Assembly: GCA_943787365.1 (NCBI GenBank)
Contig: CALSMD010000005.1
Span: forward strand, 124,001 to 188,000
DNA: 64,000 bases
Source of the DNA: an uncultured Flavobacteriaceae bacterium
GTDB lineage: Bacteria > Bacteroidota > Bacteroidia > Flavobacteriales > Flavobacteriaceae
Direction: 5' to 3'
Of the stretch, positions 17,037 to 34,990 are shown piece after piece (the stretch's first letter is position 1; each line of letters begins with the position of its first letter). The position numbers and the translations under genes are program-made. The notes under the pieces were generated by a model, which had not been told where the DNA came from, did no database searches, and was given only the letters and a program-made list of their open reading frames with translations.

Positions 17037-17861
17037 TTAGGACTCCTTATGTAGTTTCTTTAAAGTGAAATTAGAGACCAATGATTTCATTTGCGTAATA
17101 GCCATCTCATTGAGTTGTGTCAATCGTTCTTGTTGAGGTTTATTTTGATGAATCAGCATTGCATTGATGCTTTCTAAATTAGACAGTACAACCAATTGTT
17201 GAATGGTCGCAAAATCTCTAATGTTTCCTTTTTCGTTTGGGTTTTCGTCTCGCCATTGTTTGGCTGTTTTTCCAAAGAGTGCCATATTCAGCACGTCTGC
17301 TTCCGTGGCATAAATGATGGCAGTCTGTGTTCCACTTAACTGTACAGGAATTAGTTTCTCTTTAATCGCATCTGTATGGATTTTGTAATTCACTTTAGCA
17401 AGTGTTCTTTGAAAATCCCATTGTAAGTTGAGGCGATTGCTTTCATCTTCTTTAAGACGTTGGTATTCTTTAACAAGTAATAGTTGAAACTTTGGACTAA
17501 TCCACATTCCAAAATGGAAGGCAATATCTTTATGTCCATAAGTACCCCCATACCTTCCTGCCTTAGCAGTTAATCCAATAGCATTTGTTGCCTCTATCCA
17601 ATTCTTAACAGATAAAACAAAATTATTGCTACCTGCTTCATTTTTAATTGTACCGAATTCGGTATAATTAAAATCAGGATTATATAGTTTTTCCCATTCG
17701 CCAAGATACTCAATCGTACTTTTTAAACTAAGCCATTTTATAATTACAACATCCTGTAATTGGCTTTTTGCCATATCAGTAAGAGAAATAAATGCGTCTT
17801 GGTTCTTTTTTACAATTGTTATTTCTGTTCCTTGTACAGTTATCTTTTTTGGTTTACTCAT
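17037..17861 (-). CDS. KilA-N domain protein
   Basis: 274 aa. The N-terminal half (about residues 20-125) has the KilA-N pattern: FISLTDMAKS, KSTIEYLGEWE, SVKNWIEATNAIGLTAKAGRYGGTYGHKDIAFHFGMWISPKFQL. KilA-N is a DNA-binding fold shared by phage, DNA-virus and many bacterial accessory genes. The C-terminal part is helical and of unknown role. It is the first gene of the accessory island, with its own promoter at 17985-18016. A regulator or defence role is plausible but not shown. Confidence 0.88.
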   Translation of the reverse strand: MSKPKKITVQGTEITIVKKNQDAFISLTDMAKSQLQDVVIIKWLSLKSTIEYLGEWEKLYNPDFNYTEFGTIKNEAGSNNFVLSVKNWIEATNAIGLTAKAGRYGGTYGHKDIAFHFGMWISPKFQLLLVKEYQRLKEDESNRLNLQWDFQRTLAKVNYKIHTDAIKEKLIPVQLSGTQTAIIYATEADVLNMALFGKTAKQWRDENPNEKGNIRDFATIQQLVVLSNLESINAMLIHQNKPQQERLTQLNEMAITQMKSLVSNFTLKKLHKES

Positions 17862-17984
17862 TTGTTTCTTATTAAGGATAATTAAAATTAGTCTTCAATT
17901 AATACATTAATACCTGTTGTAGCTCCTGTTTTAAAACAATATTTAAAGCCCATTCAATTTTAAAGTGATGACATATTGTAGAAA

Positions 17985-18016
17985 CAAAGTTAAAAAATCA
18001 AGCTCAATTATTCAAA
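17985..18016 (-). promoter_or_regulatory. Promoter for the KilA-N gene
   Basis: On the minus strand, TTTG followed 20 bp later by TAACTTTG matches the Bacteroidota TTTG / TAnnTTTG promoter. The ATG is 124 bp downstream, so the predicted leader is about 115-120 nt. Confidence 0.5.
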
Positions 18017-18082
18017 AAAATAGTTTCTTTTAAGACTAAGGTTCAGTGGGTAGTGTGTCGTGAAGTTCGTCTGCTTTTTTTC

Positions 18083-18145
18083 TAAACCCCTCGAATTCGA
18101 GGGGTTTAAAATCGGGATTATTAAGAGATTTTGTGCGTTAGTAGG
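18083..18145. repeat. Hairpin repeat unit 1 (perfect 26-bp palindrome plus conserved tail)
   Basis: 18083-18108 is a perfect palindrome: arms TAAACCCCTC and GAGGGGTTTA around a central GAATTC. It is followed by about 34 bp of tail that includes TTTTGTGCGTTAG. The tail aligns without gaps to unit 2 (25 of 34 matches), 84 bp further on. Confidence 0.75.
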
Positions 18146-18166
18146 GATTTAATCTCGCCTGACTTT

Positions 18167-18230
18167 TAATTATGGCGAATTCTCCATAGTTAAAAATAGG
18201 ATTGTTAACAGGTTTCGTACGTAAGTGAAC
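18167..18230. repeat. Hairpin repeat unit 2 (26-bp palindrome with different arms)
   Basis: 18167-18192 is again 26 bp around GAATTC, but the arms are TAATTATGGC and TCCATAGTTA. They still pair except for one mismatch and one wobble. The tail contains TTTCGTACGTAAG and ends just outside the patatin stop codon at 18231. Size, centre and tail match unit 1 while the arm sequence changed, which points to selection on, or copying of, the paired structure. Confidence 0.7.
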
Positions 18231-19295
18231 TTATTCATCTATAAGCCCATCTAAAAAGTCATCCAATCCATTTGCTTTTGCGTATTCCAGTGTTTTGATG
18301 CCGGCATTCATCAGTTTTTTAATGTTTTCTGGCGAAGCATCAGACATGTCAGCAGCGTAATTTTGATCTTCTTTTGGCGTATCAATCCGCATATAGGCAC
18401 CAGGATCATTCGGCTGGAGGGTTCCATTGATCTCATTCATTTGAAAAGCCACCGTATCAATACTTCCATCCATCATAATATCTGGGATGGTCTTTGCCCA
18501 TTTCAAGAGACTCCAATTAGCGCTTTTTTCTTTTCTCTTAAGTTGAAATCCACCGCCTCCAGTACCGATGGATAAAATATACATCTGTTTTGCGGAGGGT
18601 TCATTGTTATTTCGGTCTTCAAAGTTTGTGTTTCTAACTTCTGCGTATGCACACATTGTAGGGTTGTTGGCAAATACGCCACCGTCCAAATTTATCATGT
18701 CAACCAACGCCTTATTTTCTTGGACGTTTGCTGCCATATTTTTTATTTTTGCTGGAGGAAAATAGGTTGGCGCTGCTGAGGTTGATCGTAAAACGTCCCG
18801 TACATAAAACTCCCTTTTAGAAGTGTCTTCATCGCTTGTAAAAAAGAAAGAAGACTTGGTATTCATATTATAAGTGGTAATAAGACAGGGTTTCATGAGC
18901 GCACTGATCCGAAGATTTCCAAATTTCTGTTTTAGTAAATTCTCTAAATTTCGAGGGCTAAACAAGGTCGCACTTCTGAGTCCCCACAATCGTTTCCAAT
19001 TACTAATCTTTGAGGCGTTAAAAATACCGTAGCCTTCTTTCACATAAAAATCCAATGCTTCTGAAGCAGCATATTTTGCTTTGGTCTGATCTCCATCCTG
19101 AGGGGTTAAATAAATAGCTGTTAGGATGCCTCCCGTACTCGTTCCAGAAATAAAGTCAAAGTGATCGGCAATAGTAGTTCCGGGTATTTTTTTCTCTAGA
19201 TATTCCTCGATGTATTTAATAATAGTTGCAGGAATGATGCCTCTAATACCTCCGCCATCTAAGGTGAGAATGCGTACTTTTTTCTTGTTTTTCAT
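18231..19295 (-). CDS. Patatin-like phospholipase
   Basis: 354 aa. The oxyanion loop DGGGIRG is at residues 13-19, the nucleophile is S53 in GTSTGG, and the catalytic aspartate is D204 in LDGGVFANNP. The full catalytic dyad is therefore present. Patatin-like enzymes hydrolyse acyl chains of membrane lipids. Relatives act as effectors in CBASS defence, but no cyclic-nucleotide synthase is nearby, so that role is not supported here. The first 44 codons are duplicated upstream in a dead copy at 19460-19591. No promoter is recognised. Confidence 0.92.
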   Translation of the reverse strand: MKNKKKVRILTLDGGGIRGIIPATIIKYIEEYLEKKIPGTTIADHFDFISGTSTGGILTAIYLTPQDGDQTKAKYAASEALDFYVKEGYGIFNASKISNWKRLWGLRSATLFSPRNLENLLKQKFGNLRISALMKPCLITTYNMNTKSSFFFTSDEDTSKREFYVRDVLRSTSAAPTYFPPAKIKNMAANVQENKALVDMINLDGGVFANNPTMCAYAEVRNTNFEDRNNNEPSAKQMYILSIGTGGGGFQLKRKEKSANWSLLKWAKTIPDIMMDGSIDTVAFQMNEINGTLQPNDPGAYMRIDTPKEDQNYAADMSDASPENIKKLMNAGIKTLEYAKANGLDDFLDGLIDE

Positions 19296-19358
19296 AACAG
19301 TTATTATTTGTAGAATTCAACACAATTTCTGTGTCAAAAATCGTTCCGAAAATTGGCT
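19163..19358. repeat. Direct repeat copy A (patatin 5' end plus nuclease tail)
   Basis: About 196 bp nearly identical to 19459-19653. It covers the first 44 codons of the intact patatin gene plus 60 bp upstream that encode, on the minus strand, the tail SERFLTQKLC of the DUF1016 remnant. The main differences are a few point changes and a short replaced stretch just before the ATG. Confidence 0.9.
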
Positions 19359-19436
19359 TTGCTGTTGTAAGAAATTGAAGGTTCGATGCAGTCAATCTTT
19401 CATATTGATGTTAGTTTTCTTGTACTCTAACCACAC

Positions 19437-19458
19437 GAAAGATTCGTGCGGGAGCGGG
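19437..19458 (-). repeat. Boundary motif copy 3
   Basis: On the minus strand this reads CCCGCTCCCGCACGAATC and is followed by TTTCGTG, which pairs partly with it. It is fused directly to codon 44 of the dead patatin copy. It resembles motifs at 19967-19990 and, more weakly, the tails of the two units at 18109-18230. Confidence 0.6.
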
Positions 19459-19653
19459 GATCGGCAATAGTAGTTCCGGGTATTTTTTTCTCTAGATATT
19501 CCTCAATGTATTTAATAATAGTAGCAGGAATGATGCCTCTAATGCCTCCGCCATCTAAGGTGAGAATGCGTACTTTTTTCTTGTTTTTCATGTATTTATT
19601 ATTTGTAGAATTCAACACAATTTCTGTGTCAAAAATCGTTCCGAAAATTGGCT
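19459..19653. repeat. Direct repeat copy B
   Basis: 195 bp, the partner of 19163-19358, 296 bp further on. It sits between the boundary motif at 19437-19458 and the intact part of the DUF1016 remnant, of which it forms the 3' end. Confidence 0.9.
19460..19591 (-). pseudogene. Truncated duplicate of the patatin gene 5' end
   Basis: The ATG at 19591 starts 44 codons encoding the same residues as the intact patatin protein (through TTIAD). After that the sequence switches abruptly to the boundary repeat, and the frame ends at 19427 with a foreign tail (PRSRTNLSCG). The nucleophile serine and the rest of the enzyme are missing, so it cannot be active. Confidence 0.88.
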
Positions 19654-19913
19654 CATTCTTCGGAGGTTGCGAAGTTCAAAATTATTTCCATAGTGTTCAC
19701 TCAAATGTGTGGACACAGTCGACATAATTTGCTTGCTATATTCCGCACGTTTATGATCTCACACAAAATCGTTGAGGTGTTTACCAATCGGCCAAAATAA
19801 CAGGGTGAGCGTACGATTTGCTTGAGTTGCAATTTTACTTTGACTTTGCCAACGAGTTCAGACAATTTATTTAACAACTCTTGCTCATTGTTTTTCAGGA
19901 GTGCTTTGCTCAT
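19612..19913 (-). pseudogene. DUF1016 (YhcG-type, PDDEXK family) nuclease remnant
   Basis: The ATG at 19913 opens MSKALLKNNEQELLNKLSEL and then loses frame near 19833-19845. In the next frame the family pattern continues: TLTLLFWPIGKHLNDFV, a TGA at 19759-19761, then RAEYSKQIMSTVS, NNFELRNLRRMSQF and SERF. It ends at TGA 19612. These match the DUF1016 N-terminal domain (sequences like RAEYGKQIV and NLRRM-x-QF). The C-terminal nuclease domain is absent. One frameshift, one nonsense codon and truncation make it dead. The family is often found with restriction and phage-defence genes. Confidence 0.82.
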
Positions 19914-19960
19914 TAAGTGTGATGCTTTTGTTTTGTGTTTCTATGGTACTTGGCAGCTGT

Positions 19961-19990
19961 GTAACACACGAAAGGATTCGTGTGTTAGCG
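19961..19990 (-). repeat. Boundary motif copy 4 (perfect hairpin)
   Basis: Arms TAACACACGAA and TTCGTGTGTTA pair perfectly over 11 bp around a 4-nt loop. On the minus strand the motif CCGCTAACACACGAATCC starts about 10 bp past the stop of the dndE-ATPase gene. It has no T run, so it is a poor intrinsic terminator. Confidence 0.75.
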
Positions 19991-19999
19991 GTGGAATAA

Positions 20000-21580
20000 T
20001 CACTTATTGTTTTCCCAAAATTGATTCAATTTAAGTAATTTACCCTTGTCAAATTCTTTAATATTTGAAATTGCTTGACCTGATTCTATTTTTTCTAGAC
20101 TTCTTGCTCCTGCGATTCCCTCTTTTTCACTAAAACCTAGAAATTTATTTATGGCTTTAGAATTTATTTTATCCTTTATATTGAGTAAAAATGACATCTC
20201 ACAATTGCTTGAGAAATCAAAACCTGGTTGATTAAACTCCGCAATTCCTTGTGACACTAATACTACTGCAACACCTTTTGAACGAATTTCCCTTAAAATC
20301 TTATCAAGTATTTCTTGATATTTTTTCTCTTTAAATATCACGTGAGCTTCATCAATTAATAGTACATAGCGCATACCGCGATAACCATTTTCTGTAGGCG
20401 TGCTTTCCATATTCATAAACGTATTGTAAATATAATTTATGATTAAAAAAAGCGAAGTGAAGCGCACAGAATTTGAAAGGTCGCCCGAAAGAGATAGATA
20501 GATGTTTTCATTTAAAAAAGATTTACCAGTTTTTTCTTCTGAAAAGATGTTATAACGACTTAACTCATCAATAATTTCGGTAAGTGTATCTCTTTTGTCT
20601 CCAACAATGTCCAACAGGTTTTCATTGATTTCTGGCATAGTTGGATATTCTCCAGTTTTTTTAGCATGAAAACTTTCCAATACAGCTTCTCTCAGATAGC
20701 CACGCTGTTTAGGTCCAAGATTTGAGTATTTACAAATAATATCGACAAACTTGTCAATGCCCATCTGTCTATCTGTTTCGTTTATTGTGTCAATAAACGA
20801 TAATGGATTGACCGGAAACGGAGTTGATGGGACATCTACAAAAGTTGCTTTTGTTTTATTAAAAAATGGCTTATAAGACTTTAAATCATCGTCTTTTAGT
20901 CCTTTGAAATCCAAATATATAAAGCTGACGTGATGATTGGATTCTTGACTTATTTGGTTAAGAAGTTCGAGTGCAAATTGTGTTTTACCAGTACCTGATG
21001 CACCCGCAATTGCAATATGTGAATTATTGTAAACATTTGTATTATTGAATTTTAATGTAATAGGTTCTTTATTTTCAATAGTTGACCCAATATTTAGATT
21101 AATAGGTTCTTTAAAAAAACTTTTTTCAATATTTTGATTGTTGTTTCTTACTGCATTAAGATTTACTTCAACACTACTTAAAAACTCTATTCCTTTATCT
21201 AAATGACCAATTAAAAAGTCAAAGAATGTGTAGTTTTTACTATTCGAAAATAGATTGTCCATTAATTCTAAACCGTGGTCAATATGAAGTTTAACGTATT
21301 TAGGGATATTTTCATCCGTTTTGTAAATACCATAATACTGGCAAATTCCAGCAATATAAAAATCGCGGTGTTTTGCATCAAAAAGGATATGGTCTTTATA
21401 TTCTTTACCTTTTGAATCATATAAGTTAAAATCGTTAGAGGTGAATTTCTTGCCATTTAATAATGAGTAGCCTAAAGCTATACGAGCAATTACATTTTCT
21501 TTTGTCCCCGTTGGAAGTTTACTTGTGAGACTACGTACAATTCCTTGGTTTTCTGCTGAAGTTCTAATATTAATCTGCAT
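20000..21580 (-). CDS. dndE: DndE domain fused to HerA/FtsK-like ATPase
   Basis: 526 aa. Residues 1-110 (IRTSAENQGIVRSLTSKL ... KYVKLHIDHGLELMDNL) match the pattern of DndE, the small DNA-binding partner in DNA phosphorothioation. Normal DndE stops there at about 110-130 aa. Here it continues into an ATPase of the DUF87/HerA type, with Walker A GASGTGKT at 193-200, Walker B YVLLIDEAH at 405-413, and a later VVLVSQGIAEF sensor-like strand. The start overlaps dndD by 11 bp. HerA-like ATPases translocate DNA, so the fusion may couple modification to DNA movement or restriction (inference). DndE identity is from pattern recognition. Confidence 0.8.
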   Translation of the reverse strand: MQINIRTSAENQGIVRSLTSKLPTGTKENVIARIALGYSLLNGKKFTSNDFNLYDSKGKEYKDHILFDAKHRDFYIAGICQYYGIYKTDENIPKYVKLHIDHGLELMDNLFSNSKNYTFFDFLIGHLDKGIEFLSSVEVNLNAVRNNNQNIEKSFFKEPINLNIGSTIENKEPITLKFNNTNVYNNSHIAIAGASGTGKTQFALELLNQISQESNHHVSFIYLDFKGLKDDDLKSYKPFFNKTKATFVDVPSTPFPVNPLSFIDTINETDRQMGIDKFVDIICKYSNLGPKQRGYLREAVLESFHAKKTGEYPTMPEINENLLDIVGDKRDTLTEIIDELSRYNIFSEEKTGKSFLNENIYLSLSGDLSNSVRFTSLFLIINYIYNTFMNMESTPTENGYRGMRYVLLIDEAHVIFKEKKYQEILDKILREIRSKGVAVVLVSQGIAEFNQPGFDFSSNCEMSFLLNIKDKINSKAINKFLGFSEKEGIAGARSLEKIESGQAISNIKEFDKGKLLKLNQFWENNK

Positions 21581-23684
21581 AGAGTTCGTCGTATTTAGTT
21601 AATAGATTGTTTGGGGTGGCTTCAATAAATTTGGAAGCGTCTGTGCTATAGTTATGAATTAGATATACCTTACTCATTTTAGGCTTTAAAAGATTGAATT
21701 CAGGAACTGTTAATTCTTTATGAAGCAAAGGAAATAATACAACTTGTTTTGAAACGTTAGGGTAAAATTCTTTGATTATATTTTGAGCGTGGTCTGCATC
21801 GAATTTTTGCATTGGAGAATCAATGAATACAGGGAATTCAATGTCAGATTCATCTACAAGTGCTTTAAGTAAAGCAGAAGCATACATCTGCCTTTCGCCC
21901 ATTGAAAGAGAACTTTTATCAATTTTTTCTTTACGAGCGTTATATAAACTGATATCAACGTCATCCCCAGCTTGATTAATATCAACGGAAATATTTTTAA
22001 TAAAATCTTTTTTGTGAAGTAGGATGTTTAATTCACTTAAAATATTTTCTTCAAGAGATTTTTTCTTTTCCTCTTTGAATGATTTTATAAAAACTTTAAG
22101 TTTATTGATAATATCTTGGGCTTTAGCATCTTTATCGGAATACTTACGAGAATTATCAATTTTCTTCCTTAATTCTTCTTGACGTTGTTTAAGAGTTTTC
22201 TTATTGTTCTTAAATGTTCCGATTTTTTCCTTTAGTTCACGAATTTCAAGTTCGATAGTCAAAACTCTTGAATCTAATTTTTCTTTTTCTGCTCTTAAAT
22301 TAGAGATATGCTCATCTTCTGCATCTTTTTCAGCATCTCTAATTTTTCTTCGGATACCATCAATTGATTTTTTAGTGCGTAGATATTCATCGTTTAAACT
22401 AGTAAACTTACTTTTAAACGAATGTTTTAAAGTATTTAATAAAGTGTTAAATTCGTTGATCTCTGTGTCTGAAAAATCGTGCAAAGGTTTGAAATTGTTA
22501 GGTAATTCTGGCGTTTCTGAAAAGAAATATTTTTTAACTAAAGAACTAATATGTTTCTCGTAAAAGTTGCGGATATCAGTTGGAATAACAGTTGGGAAGC
22601 TTTTCTTTTTCTCTTCTAAGTCGTCTAGGATGTTTTTCGTCTTATAGTCAACATCTTCTTGTATTAATTTAGAATCTCGATATTCTTTTTCGTTGCCAAG
22701 TTGCATCGAAACTTCCATTAGAGTTTCTCCAGCTAAACCAAATGGAATTAAATCGAACAATTCTTTAAGGTCACTTTGCAAACGCCCCATTGTTTCATTT
22801 AAAACACTTTCTACGTCTTTTAACTTGTTTAGCTGCTCCAAAGTCATTTTATTACCCTCGGAAATTAATTTTCTTTGAATATCATTTGATGCGTTTGCTT
22901 TTTCAATTTTTTCCTCGTCAAGTAGTTTAACTTCCGCTTCAATACTTTCAATTTCAATGTCAGCATTGTCAATATTTGCTATAATTGAATTTAACTCTGT
23001 TTTTTCTCGTGGTTTTGCGGATTTCTTTCGGTAATCATCTTGGATGTTTTCTAATTGTTCTTTTAAGTCTTCGTATTTTTTTATACCCAAAACTTCCGTG
23101 TACGCTTTACTTAATAATCTTCTTTGTTCAGGTGAATTTATTTCGGCGAGAGCAACTATTTTCTCAGCATCAAAAAAGAAGAATTTAGCAATTTCAATAG
23201 GTAATATATAATCACGAATAAAGATTTCTTCGCCTTGCTGACCATCTGTTGTAAGGTCTAGTATCAATTCGTTTTCGAAACCATCTACTAAAACTTCAAC
23301 TTTGTCTCGTGTACTAGTCACTGTGTCAAAAGAACGGGTTATTTTAATTTCTTTACAAGGTATTTCTTGAATTTTCACATCGTTAAATGTAACTGAAACT
23401 GAAAATTTTGTTTCACCCTCTACATTTGCTAAACTATTTAAACTGTTACCAATATATTTGCCATAACCTCCTTTGTCTGAAATTTCCTTTAAATAGAGTT
23501 CATCAACATTTTGCATTTGCTTCCCATAAAGGCACCAAACCAAGGACATAAGAAACGTGGTTTTACCAAAACCATTTTTACCACTAATAATAGCAATATT
23601 TTTATCAGTTTCTGGTGAAAGGTCAATTTTATTTTTCCCTTTATAGATTCTGAAATTATTAAGTTCAATTTCTCTTATAAACAT
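21570..23684 (-). CDS. dndD: DNA phosphorothioation ATPase DndD (SMC/RecF-like)
   Basis: 704 aa. The N-terminal Walker A GKNGFGKTT is at residues 35-43, with long heptad-rich coiled coils at about 200-560. The C-terminal ABC signature LSMGERQMY is at 593-601 and Walker B FPVFIDSPM at about 617-625. The opening MFIREIELNNFRIYKG is typical of DndD, the SMC-like ATPase thought to open or remodel DNA for sulfur insertion. It lies 3 bp after dndC and overlaps dndE by 11 bp. A generic RecF/SbcC-like ATPase would be the alternative, but the context makes DndD much more likely. Confidence 0.92.
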   Translation of the reverse strand: MFIREIELNNFRIYKGKNKIDLSPETDKNIAIISGKNGFGKTTFLMSLVWCLYGKQMQNVDELYLKEISDKGGYGKYIGNSLNSLANVEGETKFSVSVTFNDVKIQEIPCKEIKITRSFDTVTSTRDKVEVLVDGFENELILDLTTDGQQGEEIFIRDYILPIEIAKFFFFDAEKIVALAEINSPEQRRLLSKAYTEVLGIKKYEDLKEQLENIQDDYRKKSAKPREKTELNSIIANIDNADIEIESIEAEVKLLDEEKIEKANASNDIQRKLISEGNKMTLEQLNKLKDVESVLNETMGRLQSDLKELFDLIPFGLAGETLMEVSMQLGNEKEYRDSKLIQEDVDYKTKNILDDLEEKKKSFPTVIPTDIRNFYEKHISSLVKKYFFSETPELPNNFKPLHDFSDTEINEFNTLLNTLKHSFKSKFTSLNDEYLRTKKSIDGIRRKIRDAEKDAEDEHISNLRAEKEKLDSRVLTIELEIRELKEKIGTFKNNKKTLKQRQEELRKKIDNSRKYSDKDAKAQDIINKLKVFIKSFKEEKKKSLEENILSELNILLHKKDFIKNISVDINQAGDDVDISLYNARKEKIDKSSLSMGERQMYASALLKALVDESDIEFPVFIDSPMQKFDADHAQNIIKEFYPNVSKQVVLFPLLHKELTVPEFNLLKPKMSKVYLIHNYSTDASKFIEATPNNLLTKYDELYAD

Positions 23685-23687
23685 CTT

Positions 23688-25013
23688 TTATACTTTATTT
23701 ATATATTCCTCAATCTTATTTTCGATGTCACTTTTAAGACCTCGTTTTTTGTTAAGTAATGCTTTATTTTTTTGAAGCATTAATAATTCTTGAATAAGCT
23801 CAAAATCTCTTGAGTTTTTTTCGCAAGATTTTTTGAGTAACTCTAACTCTTTTTCTTGCTTTTTGTTCTGTTTTTCCATATTTATGTTTGTGTTATAATT
23901 GTTATGGTAAATATTTGAAACCGTGTAATTGAAAATCAAATCTCGATACCATAACGTTTGTATTGCAACTAATTCCTGATTTGTAATTAGTTCAACATGT
24001 GGTCTGTCAATTTGAATTTCTTTTTGAGCAGATAATACTTTTTCTAAAACTGTTGCTCTATATTTAGGAGTGTATGGCCCCATCCCGTTAATTGCATCCG
24101 CTCCGTTTCTCCGCTTTGGCATCCTATTTTCTATAATATTACGCTCGTTAAACAATTGGTTTCTAAATTCAAGTAAAGGACGTAGCCAAGTCAGACCATT
24201 CTCAATTAGGGCACTCATTGACTTATCTTTTTTTACAACCGTGCATACCCAGCATCCAAATCTACTTTGCCCACATGATTTATGTTCTTTATCCGTAATA
24301 ACTGTAGGGCATTCGTAATCATCTGCGCTTGCGTCAGAGTATATTTGAAACAATTCTGAATTATCGGCTTTCCAAGGGGAGGGCATTGTGTTTATAATAT
24401 ACCAAACCTCATCCAATGTTAGATTTCGAATTGGAGCATACATAAAAGTATTTGCCTGTGATGGATGCTTGGTAAGTCGTTTGCCTTTTATAGCGTGTTT
24501 TTTCATGGACTTTGCACGTTGTACACTTTCGGCAGTCCTTGTGCCGATTAGTATGACAGCTTCTCCAAATTCGTTTACTTGTTCTAAAATAAACCTTGAT
24601 GTAGGTTTAATTTTTAATCGTTCAGTACACCAACGGAAAGCATTATTTGGAGCGGGATAACCACGTCCAATTAGATTTACCCAAAATGAATCTTCTAGTC
24701 TTGGAATTGTTTTAACGACGTATACGGGTATTCCTTGGTCCCTTGCTGCAATTTCAATTTTATCCAACACTCTGTATACATATTCAGTTATTACAGGGTT
24801 TTCAACCATTGTATCATTACAAACTACGTAAATATCACGTTTTACAATTCCTGTTAATTCTTTGATTTGTGTGATTGCTTCCCAGACAAGCTGAAGCATT
24901 ACTGTAGAATCTTTGCCTCCACTAAAGCCAATAATCCACGGACGTTTAGTTTTGTCTGCGTACAGATACTGATCAATTATTTCTTCTATAATGTGTTGTG
25001 TGAATCTTAACAT
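23688..25013 (-). CDS. dndC: DNA phosphorothioation sulfurtransferase DndC
   Basis: 441 aa. The ATP-pyrophosphatase loop is FSGGKDS at residues 30-36, as in PAPS reductases. RWCTERLKIKP (C129), C235, and CGQSRFGCWVC (C247, C254, C257) supply cysteines for the Fe-S cluster and sulfur transfer. DndC adenylates the DNA backbone phosphate and delivers sulfur. The C-terminal 70 residues are a charged, probably coiled-coil tail. It is the first gene of the operon. No cysteine desulfurase (DndA) or DndB regulator accompanies it in the window. Confidence 0.93.
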   Translation of the reverse strand: MLRFTQHIIEEIIDQYLYADKTKRPWIIGFSGGKDSTVMLQLVWEAITQIKELTGIVKRDIYVVCNDTMVENPVITEYVYRVLDKIEIAARDQGIPVYVVKTIPRLEDSFWVNLIGRGYPAPNNAFRWCTERLKIKPTSRFILEQVNEFGEAVILIGTRTAESVQRAKSMKKHAIKGKRLTKHPSQANTFMYAPIRNLTLDEVWYIINTMPSPWKADNSELFQIYSDASADDYECPTVITDKEHKSCGQSRFGCWVCTVVKKDKSMSALIENGLTWLRPLLEFRNQLFNERNIIENRMPKRRNGADAINGMGPYTPKYRATVLEKVLSAQKEIQIDRPHVELITNQELVAIQTLWYRDLIFNYTVSNIYHNNYNTNINMEKQNKKQEKELELLKKSCEKNSRDFELIQELLMLQKNKALLNKKRGLKSDIENKIEEYINKV

Positions 25014-25100
25014 GTTAGGGCATATAAGTAGTTAATTTTATTTTAGTGTTGGTGAAAAGCATCTTTTTCATTCTTTTCAGTATTAGCGTTAAGTCTTCAT

Positions 25101-25108
25101 CAAAAATA
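25101..25108 (-). promoter_or_regulatory. Promoter -7 box for the dnd operon
   Basis: Minus-strand TATTTTTG (TAnnTTTG), 87 bp upstream of the dndC ATG, leaving a leader of about 80 nt. No TTTG at the usual -33 spacing. Confidence 0.35.
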
Positions 25109-25457
25109 TCGTTGATGTTTACGAGTTTCCTTTTTCAGTAAAACATCCATTGCTTAGTATTATATTTCCTCTAAAATTTATATAAAAAACTCCCTCCATT
25201 CGGTTAAATTCTTTTTGAAGATTCAGACTGGGGCCTCAATCAAAAATTGAAATTAAAATATTTTATTTAATATCCAATAAATATGGCACTTTATTTTTAT
25301 AAATAGCTGGTAGTGTTTATCTTAAATAGTTAAACATTAAACAAAACTGTAATATATTACAATTAAATAATTATTTTTTATGGAAACATGAAATTTGGCT
25401 CGTCTTACAAAACCCGTTTTTTAGCAAGAAATTAGTAAAACTTAAAGATATAGTTGA

Positions 25458-25465
25458 TATTTTTG
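25458..25465 (+). promoter_or_regulatory. Promoter -7 box abutting idi
   Basis: TATTTTTG (TAnnTTTG) ends 4 bp before the first idi ATG (25470). If used, the mRNA would be leaderless or nearly so. Confidence 0.45.
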
Positions 25466-25469
25466 TGGC

Positions 25470-26009
25470 ATGATGGAAGAACGGGTCATTCTTGTGAATG
25501 CACAGGACGAACAAATAGGCACCATGCCAAAAATGGAAGCACATGAAAAGGCGGTCTTGCACCGAGCGTTTTCGGTGTTTATATTTAATGCCAAAAATGA
25601 ATTGATGCTGCAACAACGCGCGGCTCATAAATACCATTCGCCGCTGTTGTGGACCAATACCTGCTGTTCTCACCAACGGGTTGGAGAATCCAATTTGGAA
25701 GCCGGCACACGCCGTTTGCAAGAAGAAATGGGTTTTGTGACCCCTCTCAAAGAAACCACTTGGTTTATTTACAAAGCGCCTTTTGACAATGGGCTCACCG
25801 AACACGAATTGGACCACATTATGGTGGGCAATTATGAAGCGGCACCCGTCATCAATACGGAAGAAGTGGAAGCCTGGAAATGGATGCCTTTGGAAGCCGT
25901 CAAAGCCGATATCAAACTGCAGCCAGCTCTGTACACCGAATGGTTTAAAATCATATTTGAAAAATTTTACGAACATATAAATACCACCAATGAAAGTCAC
26001 CATAAGTAG
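25470..26009 (+). CDS. idi: Isopentenyl-diphosphate delta-isomerase, type 1
   Basis: 179 aa Nudix-fold enzyme that interconverts isopentenyl and dimethylallyl diphosphate for isoprenoid and quinone synthesis. The active-site cysteine is in LLWTNTCCSHQR (about 59-70) and the metal and catalytic glutamates are in RRLQEEMGF and TEHELDHI. Two adjacent ATGs (25470, 25473) are both possible starts. It overlaps queD by 20 bp. A long open frame on the opposite strand here is a shadow. Confidence 0.96.
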   Translation: MMEERVILVNAQDEQIGTMPKMEAHEKAVLHRAFSVFIFNAKNELMLQQRAAHKYHSPLLWTNTCCSHQRVGESNLEAGTRRLQEEMGFVTPLKETTWFIYKAPFDNGLTEHELDHIMVGNYEAAPVINTEEVEAWKWMPLEAVKADIKLQPALYTEWFKIIFEKFYEHINTTNESHHK

Positions 26010-26400
26010 AAAAGCACATTTTAATGCCGCCCATAGATTGTACCGTCCCGATTGGAGTTTTGAAAAAAACGATGCCATTTTTGGGAAATGCAACAACCCT
26101 AATTTTCACGGGCACAATTACGACCTTACGGTCAGTGTGACGGGAGAGATCGATCCAGAAACAGGGTATGTGATGGACGTTAAAATCCTGAAAGACTTTA
26201 TCAAATCGGAAGTAGAAGATGCGTTTGATCATAAGAATTTAAACTTGGACGTGCCAGAATTTAAAGATTTAAACCCGACTGCCGAAAACATTGTGGTGGT
26301 CATTTACGATAAGCTAAAAGCCGTCCTCGAATCTAATTTAGATTTGGAAGTGACGCTTTATGAAACCCCTCGTAATTTTGTGACTTACTCTGGAAACTAA
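25990..26400 (+). CDS. queD: 6-carboxytetrahydropterin synthase / 6-pyruvoyl-tetrahydropterin synthase homologue
   Basis: 136 aa, with zinc-ligand histidines in HFNAAHRL (near residue 15) and FHGHNYDL (about 37-44) and the catalytic acid in LYETPRN near the C-terminus. QueD makes 6-carboxytetrahydropterin on the way to queuosine. PTPS-like activity for pterin synthesis is the alternative. It overlaps idi by 20 bp and is followed 4 bp later by manA. Confidence 0.92.
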   Translation: MKVTISRKAHFNAAHRLYRPDWSFEKNDAIFGKCNNPNFHGHNYDLTVSVTGEIDPETGYVMDVKILKDFIKSEVEDAFDHKNLNLDVPEFKDLNPTAENIVVVIYDKLKAVLESNLDLEVTLYETPRNFVTYSGN

Positions 26401-26404
26401 GCTT

Positions 26405-27382
26405 ATGAGCGCCCTTTATCCTTTAAAATTCCAACCCATTCTCAAAAATAAAATTTGGGGAGGTCAAAAACTACAACAGCTTTTAAACAAACCCACCACG
26501 GCTACGGATGCCGGCGAAAGTTGGGAAATCAGTGATGTGGAAGGCGATACCTCTGTGGTTGCCAATGGTCCTTTGGAAGGTACATCGCTAAAAACCCTTT
26601 TGGAGACTTATACGTCTGATTTGTTAGGAGCGAAGAACTTTCGCCAGTTTGGGACTAAGTTTCCTTTGCTTATAAAGTTTATTGACGCCAAAGAAGATTT
26701 GTCCGTACAGTTGCATCCCAACGATCAGCTTGCCAAAGAACGCCACAACAGTTTTGGGAAAACCGAAATGTGGTATGTGCTTCAAGCCGATACAGATTCC
26801 AATTTGATAGTTGGTTTTAATCAGGAGATGACACAAGACTTGTACCTCAAACACCTGGAAGAGAAGACGCTTCAAAGCATCTTAAATTTTGATGCCGTCC
26901 AAGCAGGGGACACCTATTTTATAGAAGTGGGGAGAATCCATGCGATTGGAGCAGGCGTACTTTTGGCAGAAATTCAACAGACCAGTGATATTACCTACCG
27001 TGTGTATGACTGGGATCGCGTGGATGCCGATGGCAATGAACGCGAATTGCACAATGACATTGCGCTGGAAGCTTTTGACTTTGATATGCCGGATAATTAC
27101 AGAGTGAAGTATTCCAAAAATTCAAATACTTCTACCGAACTGGTCAGTTGTCCGTATTTTACAACGAATGTGCTGGACGTAACAGAAACAATTCTAAAAG
27201 AAAACACACACGATTCCTTTATGATTTATATGTGTGTAGAAGGAGCTGCAAGCGTGGAAGTGGACGGAACTGTCACTGAAATTTCGATGGGGGAGACGGT
27301 TTTAATTCCTGCCTGTATCGAACGATTTTCGATTTCTGCAAATCATGCAAAACTTTTAGAAGTTTATATTGAGCTCGTTTAA
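26405..27382 (+). CDS. manA: Mannose-6-phosphate isomerase, class I
   Basis: 325 aa cupin enzyme interconverting mannose-6-phosphate and fructose-6-phosphate. The zinc-site motif DAKEDLSVQLHPND and the glutamate in GKTEMWYVL are present, as is the downstream RIHAIGAGVLLAEIQQTSD. The length fits the short bacterial type I enzyme. It is the third gene of the idi-queD-manA run. Confidence 0.94.
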   Translation: MSALYPLKFQPILKNKIWGGQKLQQLLNKPTTATDAGESWEISDVEGDTSVVANGPLEGTSLKTLLETYTSDLLGAKNFRQFGTKFPLLIKFIDAKEDLSVQLHPNDQLAKERHNSFGKTEMWYVLQADTDSNLIVGFNQEMTQDLYLKHLEEKTLQSILNFDAVQAGDTYFIEVGRIHAIGAGVLLAEIQQTSDITYRVYDWDRVDADGNERELHNDIALEAFDFDMPDNYRVKYSKNSNTSTELVSCPYFTTNVLDVTETILKENTHDSFMIYMCVEGAASVEVDGTVTEISMGETVLIPACIERFSISANHAKLLEVYIELV

Positions 27383-27542
27383 GCTTTTTCAATCGGCTAA
27401 AAAATGGCCCTTTTTGACCCACTTTTTGTCTTTTTTAACTTCCGTAACGGAGCTACGCAACTAAAAAAAACTTCAATTGGATAAAAATTGACTAATTTTC
27501 GCTACAATTCAAAAAGTGTAAACGAGTTCAGTTAAAATTACG

Positions 27543-27550
27543 TAATTTTG
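27543..27550 (+). promoter_or_regulatory. Promoter -7 box
   Basis: TAATTTTG (TAnnTTTG), 20 bp before the ATG of the small protein gene at 27571. Confidence 0.45.
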
Positions 27551-27570
27551 CAAAAACAAAAATTAAGATA

Positions 27571-27837
27571 ATGGCTAACGTTAGAAATTTAAAGAAAGAT
27601 ATCAATTACGTATTAGGAGATATCATTGAAGCAGTATACATTTGGGAATATGCCAATACCGATAAAGACACTAAAAAAAGTGAAGCGATCATTGACGAGG
27701 CGATTTCAACTTTTGATGAATTGATTGCGATGGTAAATGCTAAAGATGTTGAAAATCAAAAAGCGCATTTCAAAGGGATTGCTAAAGATCTTGAAACAAA
27801 AGGAAAAGCTTTAATCGAAAAGATTAACAAGCTCTAA
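27571..27837 (+). CDS. Small conserved-looking helical protein, unknown function
   Basis: 88 aa, soluble, charged, with no signal peptide or membrane segment. The sequence (KDINYVLGDIIEAVYIWEYA ... TFDELIAMVNAKD) predicts two to three long helices. I do not recognise a named domain. A good -7 box and an A-rich leader ending in AAGATA before the ATG support expression. It ends one base before the convergent lipoprotein stop. Confidence 0.8.
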   Translation: MANVRNLKKDINYVLGDIIEAVYIWEYANTDKDTKKSEAIIDEAISTFDELIAMVNAKDVENQKAHFKGIAKDLETKGKALIEKINKL

Positions 27838-27838
27838 A

Positions 27839-28531
27839 TTACTCAGACTTTACAGATTTAATATAGGCCTCCAGAATAATTCCATACTTAGAATTGGCAA
27901 TTTTTGGAGGCAATATTTTGTTTATGGTATCCAAGTATTTCACATTGGCATCATAAATTTCAGATACCGCTACAAAAGGAGCCACTTCACTCTCTTTATT
28001 ATTGACAGCAAAATTGATGCTGTACAAATAGCTGCGCTGTACTAATTTATCCATTTGAACTTGAAGCGAATCGGCACGTGCTGAGAAGCCATCTTTTTGA
28101 GCGTTTAATTGCGCCTCAATCATTTCTAGTTTTTGATCCTTAAAACGGGCAATGTTTTTGTAGTAAGATTCCAATAATTTTTGTTGAGTGCTGCCTTCTA
28201 TTTTCGCATCGAACTTGAAGCGTTTTAAGCTTGTGTTTATAGTTGTAAGTCCTTTATCAGCAAAGAAAGAAATGCGCTCGGCATCCACCTCTTTTGATAA
28301 ACTTAAGAATAACAACTCCGCTTCTTCCAAGTCGCAGCCCAATTCAAAATCGGTTGTACTATTCATCACCAAAGAATCCAAGGTTGTAAATCCACCATCA
28401 ATCACATTTTGAAGGTAGAGCGTTCCTTTTTGAAAGCCTTTAATACTTCCGCTAACCGTTGTGTTTTTAGGAGTTTGCTGTGTACAAGCCGTGATGAGGA
28501 TGGCAAGGATAAAGTATAAGCTGTTCTTCAT
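27839..28531 (-). CDS. DUF4369-type lipoprotein
   Basis: 230 aa. The N-terminus MKNSLYFILAILITACTQQ has a lipobox (ITAC). Residues about 25-125 (TVSGSIKGFQKGTLYLQNV ... LDSLVMNSTTDFEL) look like the DUF4369 beta domain that usually precedes a thioredoxin domain in Bacteroidota TlpA-like proteins. Here only a helical C-terminus follows and there is no CxxC. The role is unknown. Confidence 0.8.
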   Translation of the reverse strand: MKNSLYFILAILITACTQQTPKNTTVSGSIKGFQKGTLYLQNVIDGGFTTLDSLVMNSTTDFELGCDLEEAELLFLSLSKEVDAERISFFADKGLTTINTSLKRFKFDAKIEGSTQQKLLESYYKNIARFKDQKLEMIEAQLNAQKDGFSARADSLQVQMDKLVQRSYLYSINFAVNNKESEVAPFVAVSEIYDANVKYLDTINKILPPKIANSKYGIILEAYIKSVKSE

Positions 28532-28547
28532 GATTTATTTTTAGACT

Positions 28548-28555
28548 CAAATATA
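28548..28555 (-). promoter_or_regulatory. Promoter -7 box for the DUF4369 lipoprotein
   Basis: Minus-strand TATATTTG, 16 bp upstream of the ATG, between this gene and the DUF819 gene. Confidence 0.5.
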
Positions 28556-28562
28556 ATTATTT

Positions 28563-29879
28563 CTAAGCAGTTGCAGCCGCTAATTCCATAAGGATTGTAC
28601 AAGCAATGGCAGCAACTGTTCCGATGGCATATCCAAAGACCGCTAAAATCACACCCACACTTGCTAATGAGGGGTGAAACGCAGCCGCTACGATAGGCGC
28701 AGAGGCTGCAGCTCCTACATTTGCTTGGCTTCCTACGGCTAAAAAGAAATAGGGGGCTCGAATTAATTTCGCAACGGCAATTAGCAAGATTGCATGGATG
28801 CTCATCCAAACCACACCAATCGCAATCAATCCTGTATTGTCAAAGATCATGGTTAAATCCATTTTCATTCCAATGCTGGCGACTAAGATGTAAATAAAAA
28901 CACTTCCAAATTTACTCGCGCCTGCACCTTCATAATTTTTAGCTTTTGTAAACGAAAGTCCCACAGCAGTGAGGGTTGCAATACTAATCAACCAAAAGAA
29001 AGAAGACCCTAAAAAGGTAAAAATGTTTCTTAAGGTTCCAGATTCAATCGTTGCGACATATTCACTAAAAAAGGGTGCTAGATACCCAGAGGCGATGTGT
29101 GCAAAACTCACCGTTCCAAATGCAATCCCAACCATGATCATAATATCCGTGAGTGATGGGTTGCGTTTGACACTTTCTGTGAAGGTAGAAACTTTGTCTT
29201 TCAACGTTTCAATGGCAGTGGTGTCGGCTCGTAACCATTTATTAATCCGGTCTGATTTTCCAATTCCAATTAATAAGAGTGCCATCCATATATTAGCAAC
29301 CACGATGTCTACAAACACCATGCCCCCAAACAATTCTTTATTATATCCATAAATTTCCAACATCGCGATTTGGTTGGCGCCGCCACCAATCCAACTTCCT
29401 GCTAAGGTAGAGAGGCCTCTCCAAACTGCATCGGGTCCAATACCACCTACCGTTTCTGGAGAAACTAAAGAAATTAATAAGATGGCAATCGGGCCTCCAA
29501 TGACGATGCCTAAAGTCCCTGTAAAAAACATAATCAATGCTTTCCATCCCAAGTTGACAACAGCTTTTAAATCGATGCTTAGAGTCATTAAAACCAACGC
29601 GGCGGGTAATAAGTAACGACTTGCTACATAGTACAAGTTGCTGCTGTGTTCGGTCAGTTCGCCGGTAGGAGTGAGGGTTTTCCATTCTGGAGCAATCCAT
29701 CCCAAGGTTGTGAATAGGGCTGGAATCATATAGGCCATAAACAGTCCGGGAACAATTTTATAAAATTTATGCCAAAAGCCGGTTGGACGGGATTCTGTGT
29801 AAAATATCAGAGCAATGGCCGACATGAGTAACCCAAAAACAATGGTATCGTCTGTAAAAAATGGCGTTGTATCTATCAT
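28563..29879 (-). CDS. DUF819 family (YjcL-type) membrane protein
   Basis: 438 aa with about 11-12 hydrophobic segments. Family features include FMAYMIPALFTTLGWI, AGSWIGGGANQIAM and VGSQANVGAAASAPIVAAAF, the last two being the paired glycine/asparagine-rich loops seen in DUF819 and related transporter folds. Probably an inner-membrane transporter of unknown substrate. Monocistronic, with a -7 box 21 bp upstream. Confidence 0.9.
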   Translation of the reverse strand: MIDTTPFFTDDTIVFGLLMSAIALIFYTESRPTGFWHKFYKIVPGLFMAYMIPALFTTLGWIAPEWKTLTPTGELTEHSSNLYYVASRYLLPAALVLMTLSIDLKAVVNLGWKALIMFFTGTLGIVIGGPIAILLISLVSPETVGGIGPDAVWRGLSTLAGSWIGGGANQIAMLEIYGYNKELFGGMVFVDIVVANIWMALLLIGIGKSDRINKWLRADTTAIETLKDKVSTFTESVKRNPSLTDIMIMVGIAFGTVSFAHIASGYLAPFFSEYVATIESGTLRNIFTFLGSSFFWLISIATLTAVGLSFTKAKNYEGAGASKFGSVFIYILVASIGMKMDLTMIFDNTGLIAIGVVWMSIHAILLIAVAKLIRAPYFFLAVGSQANVGAAASAPIVAAAFHPSLASVGVILAVFGYAIGTVAAIACTILMELAAATA

Positions 29880-31946: not shown

Positions 31947-33860
31947 TTATTTTATCATTTCATAGCTACGGTTGATGAAATTGGTCAAGGCTTCTCCTTT
32001 CAGAAGTCCTTGAGACAATTGTGCCAAATCCAAGCTTTGTGTGATTAAACGTTCTTGTTTTTTCTTTGTTTTGGTGTTTAGAATTTCACTTACCAATTCA
32101 GAGTTGGTGTTTACAATAAGGTTGTGCATTTCAGGCATATTCCCCATTCCAAACATGCCGCCACCGCCACCGGTTTGTTGCATTTCTTTCATACGACGCA
32201 TAAACTCAGGTTGTGTAATCATAAAGGGTGCAGAATTGCTGTCCATTGCCTCTAATTGTACCATGAATTTTTCCGAAGGAACAATTTCCTTCAAAACAGT
32301 TTCAAGCGTTGTTTTGTCTTCTTCACTCAGTTTAGAAACGGTCGCTTCATCCTTTTTAATCAAATTATCAACATGATCTGAATCCACACGTACAAAGCTT
32401 GTGTTTTCTTTCTCGCTTTCTAATTTCTGAATTAAATGAGATACAATAGGAGAATCTAACAACAACACTTCGTAGCCTTTTGTTTTTGCAGCTTCAATGT
32501 AACTGTGTTGGGCATCTTTATTAGAGGCATACAAAATGACTAGTTTATCATCCTTATCCGTTTGGTTTGCTTTGATTTTGTTGTAAAGCTCTTCATAGGT
32601 ATAATAGGTTCCATCGACTGAAGGATACAATGCAAACGCATCGGATTTTTCAAAGAATTTATCTTCGGAAAGCATCCCGTATTCAATCACAATTTTAATG
32701 TCATTCCATTTTGCTTCAAAATCTTCTCTATTAGAATTGAATAGAGATTTCATTTTATCCGCTACTTTTTTAGTGATGTAAGACGCTATTTTTTTAACCG
32801 CGCCATCTGCTTGAAGGTACGAACGAGATACGTTTAATGGAATGTCTGGAGAATCAATTACCCCTCTTAACATCGTTAAAAATTCAGGGACAATGCCTTC
32901 AACGTTATCCGTTACAAATACTTGGTTTTGATACAACTGGATTTTATCCTTTTGCACATTCATATCATTCCCCATTTTTGGGAAGTATAAAATCCCTGTC
33001 AAGTTGAAAGGATAATCTACATTTAAATGAATGTTAAATAAAGGCTCTTCAAACTGCATTGGATACAGCTCGCGGTAAAAACTTTTATAGTCGGTTTCTT
33101 CTAATTCAGAAGGCTGCTTGGTCCAAGCCGGTGTTGGGTTGTTAATGATGTTATCAACCGTAACCTTACGCTGAGGTTCCGTTGTTTCCTTACCGTCTTT
33201 GTCCGTAGTTGTTTTTGGTTCATGCGTTTCATCATTTTCTTCTTTGTTTCCAAATTTAATTGGAATCGGCATGAACTTATTGTATTTGTTTAAAAGCGTC
33301 GTGATACGGCTTTCTTCAAGAAATTCAGTAGAATCTTCAGCAATGTGCAAAATAATCTCGGTTCCTCTTTCTGTTTTGTCAGAAGCTTCAAGCGTGTATT
33401 GTGGGCTGCCGTCACAAGTCCAATGCGCAGCAGGTTCATCTTTGAAAGACTTGGTAATAATTTCTACTTTTTCAGCGACCATAAAGGCAGAGTAGAAGCC
33501 CAATCCAAAATGACCGATAATCCCAGAATCGTCGATCTTGTCTTTATATTTGTCTAAAAATTCTTCGGCGCCAGAAAAAGCAACTTCGTTGATGTATTTC
33601 TGAACCTCATCCGCAGTCATCCCTAAACCTTGATCGATAATGTGAAGTTTTTTGCCTTCTTGATCGATTTTAATTTCGATTTTAGGCGTTCCGTACTTTA
33701 CACTCACTTCACCAATGTTGGTCAAGTGTTTTAGTTTTAGAGTGGCGTCTGTGGCATTACTCACCAATTCACGTAAAAAGATTTCGTGATCGCTATAGAG
33801 GAATTTTTTAATCAGTGGAAAAATATTTTCTACGGATACATTAATCGTACCTTTTGACAT
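31947..33860 (-). CDS. htpG: Molecular chaperone HtpG (Hsp90)
   Basis: 637 aa from the ATG at 33860 (MSKGTINVSVENIFPL). An in-frame upstream start at 33938 would add a sequence unlike any Hsp90. The N-terminal GHKL ATPase has RELVSNATDA, GLGMTADEV, and GHFGLGFYSAF. The middle domain carries the catalytic arginine region SRSYLQAD, and the C-terminal dimerisation domain ends in GEALTNFINRSYEMI. ATP-driven chaperone for stress and protein maturation. Confidence 0.97.
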   Translation of the reverse strand: MSKGTINVSVENIFPLIKKFLYSDHEIFLRELVSNATDATLKLKHLTNIGEVSVKYGTPKIEIKIDQEGKKLHIIDQGLGMTADEVQKYINEVAFSGAEEFLDKYKDKIDDSGIIGHFGLGFYSAFMVAEKVEIITKSFKDEPAAHWTCDGSPQYTLEASDKTERGTEIILHIAEDSTEFLEESRITTLLNKYNKFMPIPIKFGNKEENDETHEPKTTTDKDGKETTEPQRKVTVDNIINNPTPAWTKQPSELEETDYKSFYRELYPMQFEEPLFNIHLNVDYPFNLTGILYFPKMGNDMNVQKDKIQLYQNQVFVTDNVEGIVPEFLTMLRGVIDSPDIPLNVSRSYLQADGAVKKIASYITKKVADKMKSLFNSNREDFEAKWNDIKIVIEYGMLSEDKFFEKSDAFALYPSVDGTYYTYEELYNKIKANQTDKDDKLVILYASNKDAQHSYIEAAKTKGYEVLLLDSPIVSHLIQKLESEKENTSFVRVDSDHVDNLIKKDEATVSKLSEEDKTTLETVLKEIVPSEKFMVQLEAMDSNSAPFMITQPEFMRRMKEMQQTGGGGGMFGMGNMPEMHNLIVNTNSELVSEILNTKTKKKQERLITQSLDLAQLSQGLLKGEALTNFINRSYEMIK

Positions 33861-33945
33861 AATTATGTTGATTTTTAAGTTATATGGTTTCTTATAGTCA
33901 AAAAAAATACCAAATATTAAAAAGTGACAAACTGACAATTTAGTT

Positions 33946-33953
33946 TATATTTG
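33946..33953 (+). promoter_or_regulatory. Promoter -7 box for fabH
   Basis: TATATTTG (TAnnTTTG), 26 bp before the fabH ATG. Confidence 0.5.
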
Positions 33954-33979
33954 TTACACCTTTTACTCAAACTTACACT

Positions 33980-34990
33980 ATGTACAACTCAAAAATTATA
34001 GGTTTAGGTCATTATGTGCCAGAAAACGTTGTCACGAATGACGATTTGTCTAAGATTATGGACACGACAGATGAATGGATTCAAGAACGTACGGGAATCA
34101 AAGAACGCCGTTGGGCAAAGCCTGGCGATGGACAATCCACTTTTACAATGGGTTTGGAGGCTGCCAAAAAGGCCATTTTAAACGCTGGAATTGAAAAAGA
34201 AAATATTGATCTTATTGTATTTGCAACTTTAAGTCCCGATTATTACTTTCCTGGACCAGGAGTGCAAATTCAAGAAGCTTTAGAAATTGATACAGTAGCG
34301 GCTTTGGACATTAGAGCCCAATGTTCGGGTTTTGTGTATTCGATTTCGGTGGCAGATCAATTTATTAAAACGGGTATGTACAAAAATATCCTTGTGATTG
34401 GAAGTGAATTGCAATCGCATGGGATTGACAAATCGACTCGCGGTCGAAGTATATCAGTTATTTTTGGCGATGGTGCCGGAGCTGCTATACTAACGCGTGA
34501 AGAAGATTTGACAAAAGGGATTCTATCCACACACATACATTCTGAAGGAAAACATGCGCTTGAGCTTGCAACCGAAGCACCGGGTATGGGAACGCGTTGG
34601 GTGACCGATATTATTAAAGAGAATGACCCTGAAGATTTTAGTTACCGTCCTTATATGAACGGGCAATTTGTTTTTAAACATGCCATCAAACGCTTTAGTG
34701 AGGTGATCAATGAAGGTTTGCAAAAAAATAATTTAGAAGTTTCTGATATTGATATGCTCATTCCACATCAAGCCAACTTGCGGATTTCTCAGTTCATTCA
34801 AAAGCGGTTTGGATTGTCGGACGACCAAGTTTATAACAACATTCAAAAATACGGAAATACCACGGCAGCCTCCATTCCAATTGCCTTATCTGAAGCCCAT
34901 GAACAAGGGAAAGTCAAAGAAGGGGACACGGTTGTTTTAGCCGCTTTTGGAAGTGGATTTACTTGGGGAAGTGTGATTATAAAATGGTAG
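33980..34990 (+). CDS. fabH: 3-oxoacyl-ACP synthase III (KAS III)
   Basis: 336 aa thiolase-fold enzyme that starts fatty-acid synthesis by condensing acyl-CoA with malonyl-ACP. The Cys-His-Asn triad is visible: C115 in AQCSGFVYSI, histidine in IPHQANLRI and asparagine in YGNTTAASIPIAL. It is not next to plsX, acpP or rpmF here, so it may be one of several FabH copies. Divergent from htpG. Confidence 0.95.
   Translation: MYNSKIIGLGHYVPENVVTNDDLSKIMDTTDEWIQERTGIKERRWAKPGDGQSTFTMGLEAAKKAILNAGIEKENIDLIVFATLSPDYYFPGPGVQIQEALEIDTVAALDIRAQCSGFVYSISVADQFIKTGMYKNILVIGSELQSHGIDKSTRGRSISVIFGDGAGAAILTREEDLTKGILSTHIHSEGKHALELATEAPGMGTRWVTDIIKENDPEDFSYRPYMNGQFVFKHAIKRFSEVINEGLQKNNLEVSDIDMLIPHQANLRISQFIQKRFGLSDDQVYNNIQKYGNTTAASIPIALSEAHEQGKVKEGDTVVLAAFGSGFTWGSVIIKW

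Follow-up and report, generated by a model that had tools for sequence, protein, structure and literature searches.

The locus described here raises the question of what a HerA/FtsK motor does when it is joined to DndE, and offers a compact test case for whether such motors in phosphorothioate (PT) systems serve the marking of DNA or its cutting. The window, the whole stretch of 64,000 nucleotides that was analysed, comes from an uncultured Flavobacteriaceae bacterium and contains a three-gene operon, the third gene of which encodes DndE joined to a HerA/FtsK motor. Judged by the family assignments of its genes, the operon probably puts sulphur into DNA. Its genes are as follows.

23688..25013, minus strand: dndC, PP-loop sulfurtransferase, 441 aa (TIGR03183 427 bits, cut-off 290; SGGKDS motif)
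21570..23684, minus strand: dndD, coiled-coil ABC ATPase, 704 aa (TIGR03185 286 bits, cut-off 246)
20000..21580, minus strand: dndE-herA fusion, 526 aa (Pfam, PADLOC, profile and structure matches)

DndC and DndD score above their curated cut-offs and DndE above its Pfam cut-off, which would place the operon in the DndCDE family. The tight coupling of the three genes noted in the initial annotation is confirmed by the ORF coordinates, with a 3-bp gap between dndC and dndD and an 11-bp overlap between dndD and the fusion. The gene order dndC-dndD-dndE-herA recurs in relatives; DndD lies immediately upstream of the fusion in 83 of the 86 fused loci, and DndC lies inside the flank examined in 78 of them. 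DndC was not found in the stretches examined of fused loci L031 and L161, where DndD and DndE-HerA (L031:5250-11298, L161:4688-10522) each lie 3' of a gene for a protein of 666-734 aa; the L161 protein has weak sigma-70-like matches, MzaA included. At a further locus, L102, a free DndE set and a fused DndD/DndE-HerA pair occur in tandem, followed by a membrane-like protein and DndB.

Within the fusion protein, the following parts were located.

21251..21568, minus strand: DndE part, residues 5-110 (PF08870 E 1.4e-16, 61 bits, cut-off 25; PADLOC DndE 6.4e-7; structure 7x4e 4.4e-8 by profile)
20012..21136, minus strand: HerA/FtsK ATPase part, residues 149-523 (DndH C-terminus E 1.3e-28 with PADLOC; 7es4 fold match 2.2e-19)
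20981..21004, minus strand: Walker A GASGTGKT, residues 193-200 (G193, G198 and K199 invariant in 69 aligned fusions)
20342..20368, minus strand: Walker B YVLLIDEAH, residues 405-413 (I409-H413 invariant in 69 aligned fusions)
20249..20284, minus strand: Arg433 to Gln444, candidate arginine finger and sensor-1 Gln (both invariant in the 69)

The DndE-like N-terminus, which had been proposed from its pattern, is borne out by the Pfam profile; with the stricter equivalog TIGR03184 it reaches 34.7 bits, below the cut-off of 71.85. A profile built from the 69 fusions finds the DndE structure 7x4e with positions 16-113 (4.4e-8) and the DptH ATPase structure 7es4 with positions 159-501 (2.4e-25). 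A chance DndE match was ruled out, Pfam, PADLOC and the PDB profile being concordant, and so was an assembly chimera, because fusion ORFs of 510-560 aa recur in 82 other loci. The P-loop ATPase is likewise as first described, with both Walker motifs at the residues given for them, and is of the DndH type. The structure of the fusion was predicted with a pLDDT of 87 and a pTM of 0.71, and a fold search with this model returned the DndH C-domain/DptH structure 7es4 as the best match, followed by HerA and VirB4, with TdpAB (8wfd) at rank 19. All 50 fold matches shown concern the motor, so this search adds nothing on DndE. The fused motor is thus closest to the ATPase of DndH. Across the 69 aligned fusions, the window included, G193, G198, K199, D410, E411, R433 and Q444 are invariant; R433 is a candidate arginine finger and Q444 a candidate sensor-1 Gln by analogy. 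The alignment takes in L055, L067 and L092, bare copies in which the motor residues are invariant too.

The initial annotation had also pointed to the lack of dndA, dndB and a dndFGH set at the locus, and for dndB and dndH the search of the organism's own assembly (88.8% complete, 7.5% contamination) agrees with it. DndH (about 1700 aa), the sole DndFGH member sought genome-wide, was not found, only the ATPase part of the fusion giving a match. Not found in the assembly either were DndB (PF14072), a DUF262 reader of the SspE/DndI type (PF03235), which the same search detects in 8 of 14 control genomes, and X324, a cassette protein of relatives that was sought without a positive control. These absences are provisional, since the assembly is 88.8% complete and the search covered DndH, DndB, DUF262 and X324. 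According to the relevant passage of PMC8569181, DndB is not essential for PT. No linked dndA was found at the window operon; SufS is encoded elsewhere in the genome (584 bits, cut-off 475), as is an IscS/NifS-like desulfurase that scores below curated cut-offs. Together these unlinked proteins could supply the cysteine desulfurase that a DndCDE system requires.

Scanning genome contigs for relatives yielded 253 stretches that encode one, and the top 80 were analysed. Nearly all of these are titled Bacteroidota, and the other 173 need not be fusions. The 86 fused loci contain some redundancy: L028 is the same contig as L059, and the fusions of L093/L095 and of L097/L098 are identical. The records of these two identical pairs are titled Bacillota or Oscillospiraceae and Prevotellaceae, which could reflect either recent transfer or misbinned contigs. 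DndE turned up in 17 genomes out of 395 for the order and 10 out of 395 for a sample of the phylum; when the two samples are joined, the fusion, as judged by open-frame length, occurs in 9 of the 23 DndE-positive genomes. It was not found in viral contigs, and the matches in phages and plasmids concern the motor part only, at <30% identity.

To follow the descent of the fusion, a DndD tree was built from 87 proteins (72 fused, 15 free), leaving out fused DndD ORFs of <640 aa and other DndD of <600 aa or <100 bits. The fused/free label needs 3 changes on this tree, as compared to 14.1 when shuffled. All 3 are forced by starred branches of this quick tree, so a single origin without loss is not what it shows. 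L162 and the pair L031/L161 fall outside the main fused group and have long branches of uncertain position; L162 also has GIY-like and DndB genes between dndD and the fusion. Nested among the fusions is L041, where a DndE of 173 aa (9621-10142) has the linker and no motor. This is a possible loss of the motor, and its position among fusions suggests that the motor may be dispensable.

The survey of fused versus separate DndE called for by the initial annotation revealed a tendency. Full-length DndH is present in 6 of 14 genomes with free DndE and in 0 of 9 with the fusion (Fisher p 0.048, with kinship ignored and the genomes few and related). At the level of loci, a DndH core lies within the flanks examined in 6 of 14 free-DndE loci and in 0 of 86 fused loci; the DndH queries were taken from L034, L163 and L165, so 3 of the 6 positive control loci match by construction. 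One flagged match in a fused locus, L027_8, proved to be the fusion itself plus a meaningless extra segment (i-Evalue 110). The fusion and DndH never occur together in the sets examined and look like alternatives. The survey did not, however, show the neighbouring genes to be a simple replacement for DndFGH, as set out below.

Right behind the fusion, relatives have a slot, occupied in 54 of the 86 fused loci by a two-gene cassette of one of three types, and no locus has two. Cassettes A, B and C occur in 18, 29 and 7 loci, respectively, shares that apply to near relatives because the loci derive from the best 80 of the 253 stretches. The downstream flank is at least 9 kb long in 50 of the 86 loci and <1.5 kb in 6. 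Cassette A pairs a protein of about 324 aa, X324, with one called ParB-like on the strength of PADLOC PD-Lambda-5_A matches and, for the L034 homolog, an NCBIfam match below cut-off; Pfam gave nothing useful on this cassette. The X324 sequence has no match in Pfam, PADLOC or PDB searches. Its structural model (pLDDT 89) has MspJI as best fold match (E 4e-3, probability 0.99, TM 0.30) and none at E ≤0.001, which is suggestive of a restriction-enzyme-like protein. Cassette B consists of DndB and the gene behind the fusion. Of the 29 genes directly behind the fusion, 8 are GIY-YIG-like, 14 fall into a pair of membrane-like groups of 10 and 4, 5 are ungrouped and the remaining 2 are DndB; the GIY-YIG-like and membrane-like labels were given by eye, with a best Pfam E of 0.15. 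Cassette C consists of a GHKL ATPase and a Methyltransf_35 protein.

On a quick tree of the fusions, in which 18 of 76 inner branches are open, the 53 cassette-bearing rows need at least 15 changes between A, B and C. With loci labelled as having none included (23 of 81 tree rows, with 5 more unlabelled, and counting L063, L085 and L118 with other defence-like genes), 33 changes are needed versus 38.1 when shuffled, a value as low being reached in 6 of 200 shuffles. Cassettes therefore follow the descent of the core weakly. In L034, L035 and L038, cassettes A and B accompany a free DndE together with DndH, so the cassettes do not simply stand in for DndFGH. The swap slot suggests that a wide variety of effectors can read a single PT core. 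L055, L067, L092, L101 and L105 have bare operons in which each of the three ORFs is full-length.

The copy in the window is one without a cassette, as a comparison with its two nearest relatives and the DNA behind the fusion illustrates.

20004..25080, minus strand: DNA block common to the two nearest relatives, L044 (83.7%, 20004-25038) and L045 (81.0%, 20004-25080)
19296..19999, no strand assigned: 704-bp scrambled gap at the cassette site of many relatives, with a duplicated patatin start and decayed-gene scraps

Since the DNA shared with L044 and L045 starts at 20004, the block extends no further than the fusion's stop codon. In L044, the fusion is followed after 12 bp by cassette A; the L045 contig breaks off shortly beyond its fusion. 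The genes directly upstream of the operon in L045 (3096-6278; Winogradskyella SP247) match window positions 31947-34989, so the Winogradskyella operon appears to lie near the same genes as the window operon, at another point. In the gap, direct repeats of about 190 bp (19163-19358 and 19459-19653, 98-100% identical) duplicate the start of the patatin gene. The gap also contains scraps of a decayed gene that, by eye, looks DUF1016-like. Cassette proteins have no convincing match in the window (best E 0.013). Because it lacks the partner cassettes, and because the searches for DndH, DndB, DUF262 and X324 were empty, this bare copy is probably modification-only now. The earlier suggestion of a self-contained defence variant finds no support in this copy, which is without the cassettes of 54 of the 86 loci and whose four partner searches gave nothing. 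Further along, a KilA-N protein (17037-17861) aligns with the PADLOC candidate PDC-S22 along almost all of its length (427 bits), and this gene and the operon may form a small defence island.

The loop of DndC offers a view of the putative target of the operon. Three residues of this loop are linked to the PT motif, and the published triads are TRS, TQN/NQT and R-X-K/R in the part of PMC12193691 that deals with them. In the window the loop, as defined there, reads as follows.

24639..24647, minus strand: DndC triad Asn123-Asn124-Ala125 in GYPAPNNAFRWC

The Asn-Asn-Ala triad is unlike all three types given in that part of the paper. Fused loci, counting the window, provide 76 DndC ORFs of >330 aa; the loop is readable in 73 and matches those triads in 0. 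In free-DndE loci, 12 of 13 have Asn-Asn-X and L165 has Ser-Arg-Asn, so the loop type belongs to the group and not to the fusion.

Taken together, our current hypothesis, which we consider probable while well short of settled, is that the operon is a PT modification operon of the DndCDE kind whose DndE carries its own DndH-type HerA/FtsK motor. Housekeeping SufS/IscS would feed DndC, the enzyme that would introduce sulphur into the DNA backbone. A clamp made of DndD and the DndE part would find the site, and the fused motor, probably a multi-subunit ring, would move the complex along the DNA. In relatives, the cassette would act as reader of the core through a ParB/DndB-family protein together with a nuclease or membrane protein, analogous to SspE or DndI split in two. 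The proposal of the initial annotation that the translocase is built into the modification machine would fit this arrangement. Since bare full-length operons recur, we argue that the motor serves the core itself, and in bare copies without a recognised restriction partner any role of the motor in modification would be separable. At its broadest, and in this form only tentatively, the hypothesis would describe a self-propelled PT-marking core that makes DndFGH unnecessary, with a plug-in port for reader/effector pairs, some of the effectors being membrane proteins, and with Asn-Asn-Ala denoting a PT target outside the three known for DndCDE.

The kinship of the motor with DndH favours a role in restriction instead. 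In such a system the fused HerA would pump unmodified DNA to the cassette nuclease, with DndE providing targeting and modification blocking the attack, and the window would hold half a system. The separation of the fusion from DndH in the sets examined is in keeping with this, as are cassettes whose proteins have an MspJI-like fold (suggestive) or look GIY-YIG-like by eye. Bare copies, however, keep every invariant motor residue, and a motor preserved in such operons argues for a part in marking; in addition, the same cassettes accompany free DndE with DndH, so the partner is independent of the fusion. We regard a restriction-side motor as unlikely, if deserving of weight, and on balance appreciably prefer a motor in marking. 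Alternatively, the operon could be a decaying leftover with intact modification genes and a lost partner, setting an occasional PT mark at most. The scrambled downstream gap, the four empty searches of the assembly and the presence of cassette A close behind the fusion of L044 would be expected of such a remnant, but the three frames are open, DNA identity to the Gillisia and Winogradskyella records is 81-84%, the invariant residues are kept and bare full-length operons recur, which makes this explanation doubtful.

A further candidate for the missing partner is the patatin-like phospholipase at 18231-19295, which could act as an effector in place of a cassette, PT sensing triggering membrane damage. 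It is encoded on the operon strand as the next intact gene, 704 bp downstream, its catalytic GTSTG and DGG are intact, it resembles CBASS lipases below cut-off (174 bits versus 200), and some cassettes of relatives encode proteins that look membrane-like by eye. The scan of ten proteins from 17037 to 29879 revealed no CBASS cyclase. A patatin as conserved partner was ruled out, none being present in the other 85 fused loci. Homologs occur in 49 of 296 genomes of the order, with no dnd gene recognised in the four other loci inspected; the fusion-bearing genomes G064 and G115 have their patatin on another contig; and the intervening 704 bp hold the duplicated start and the decayed gene. An effector role is thus very improbable, and a gene separate from the operon is the best explanation of the patatin.

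With regard to known systems, TdpABC is similar in that a HerA-type motor takes part in a PT-based system; its motor TdpA is a separate protein, and its modifying enzyme TdpC acts alone, without DndD and DndE. Classical DndBCDE with DndFGH shares the DndC, DndD and DndE core and has the same kind of motor in DndH, but there DndE is free and the motor belongs to DndH, whereas in the window the two are fused and no DndB or DndH was found. DndC, DndD and DndE form a PT complex in which DndE sits on the coiled coil of DndD, according to the predicted structure and pull-down in the relevant part of PMC12193691. A resemblance to PbeABCD, in which a CxC ABC ATPase accompanies the HKD-nuclease helicase PbeA (as described in passages of PMC6459918 and PMC10853773), comes from the PADLOC model labelled PbeC, which matches the window DndD at 876 bits versus 311 for the best PADLOC DndD model. 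No CxC zinc hook was found when the motif was read in the window DndD, and the ten scanned proteins of the 17037-29879 interval include no PbeA-like HKD-nuclease helicase; membership of PbeABCD was ruled out despite the PADLOC label, this DndD being without CxC. In the IscS-DndBCDE-DndI (described in part of PMC11662687) and SspABCD-SspE systems, a ParB-superfamily PT sensor gates a nuclease, both in one protein. Cassettes A and B of relatives, which have no counterpart in the window, resemble a split DndI/SspE in two genes instead of one protein, and by analogy may be a split form of this ParB-sensor/nuclease reader.

The closest precedent comes from Rakesh, Aravind, Krishnan 2024 (PMC10853773), where HerA/FtsK (clade 3) domains are reported as fusions with DndE that neighbour a DndD-type gene; the window fusion matches these in that its motor is joined to DndE and adjoins a DndD-type gene. 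The novelty implied by the initial annotation therefore fails: the fusion has been published, and many Bacteroidota have it. The fusion is absent from the relevant passages of PMC9239217, PMC8569181, PMC6459918, PMC11662687, PMC12193691 and PMC12839542; the section of PMC10853773 concerned mentions it briefly and gives no account of a swap slot, a separation from DndH or the DndC loop. Going by these sections, the architecture itself is already in print, and its context, consisting of the separation from DndH, the swap slot, the bare copy and the DndC loop, is partly new.
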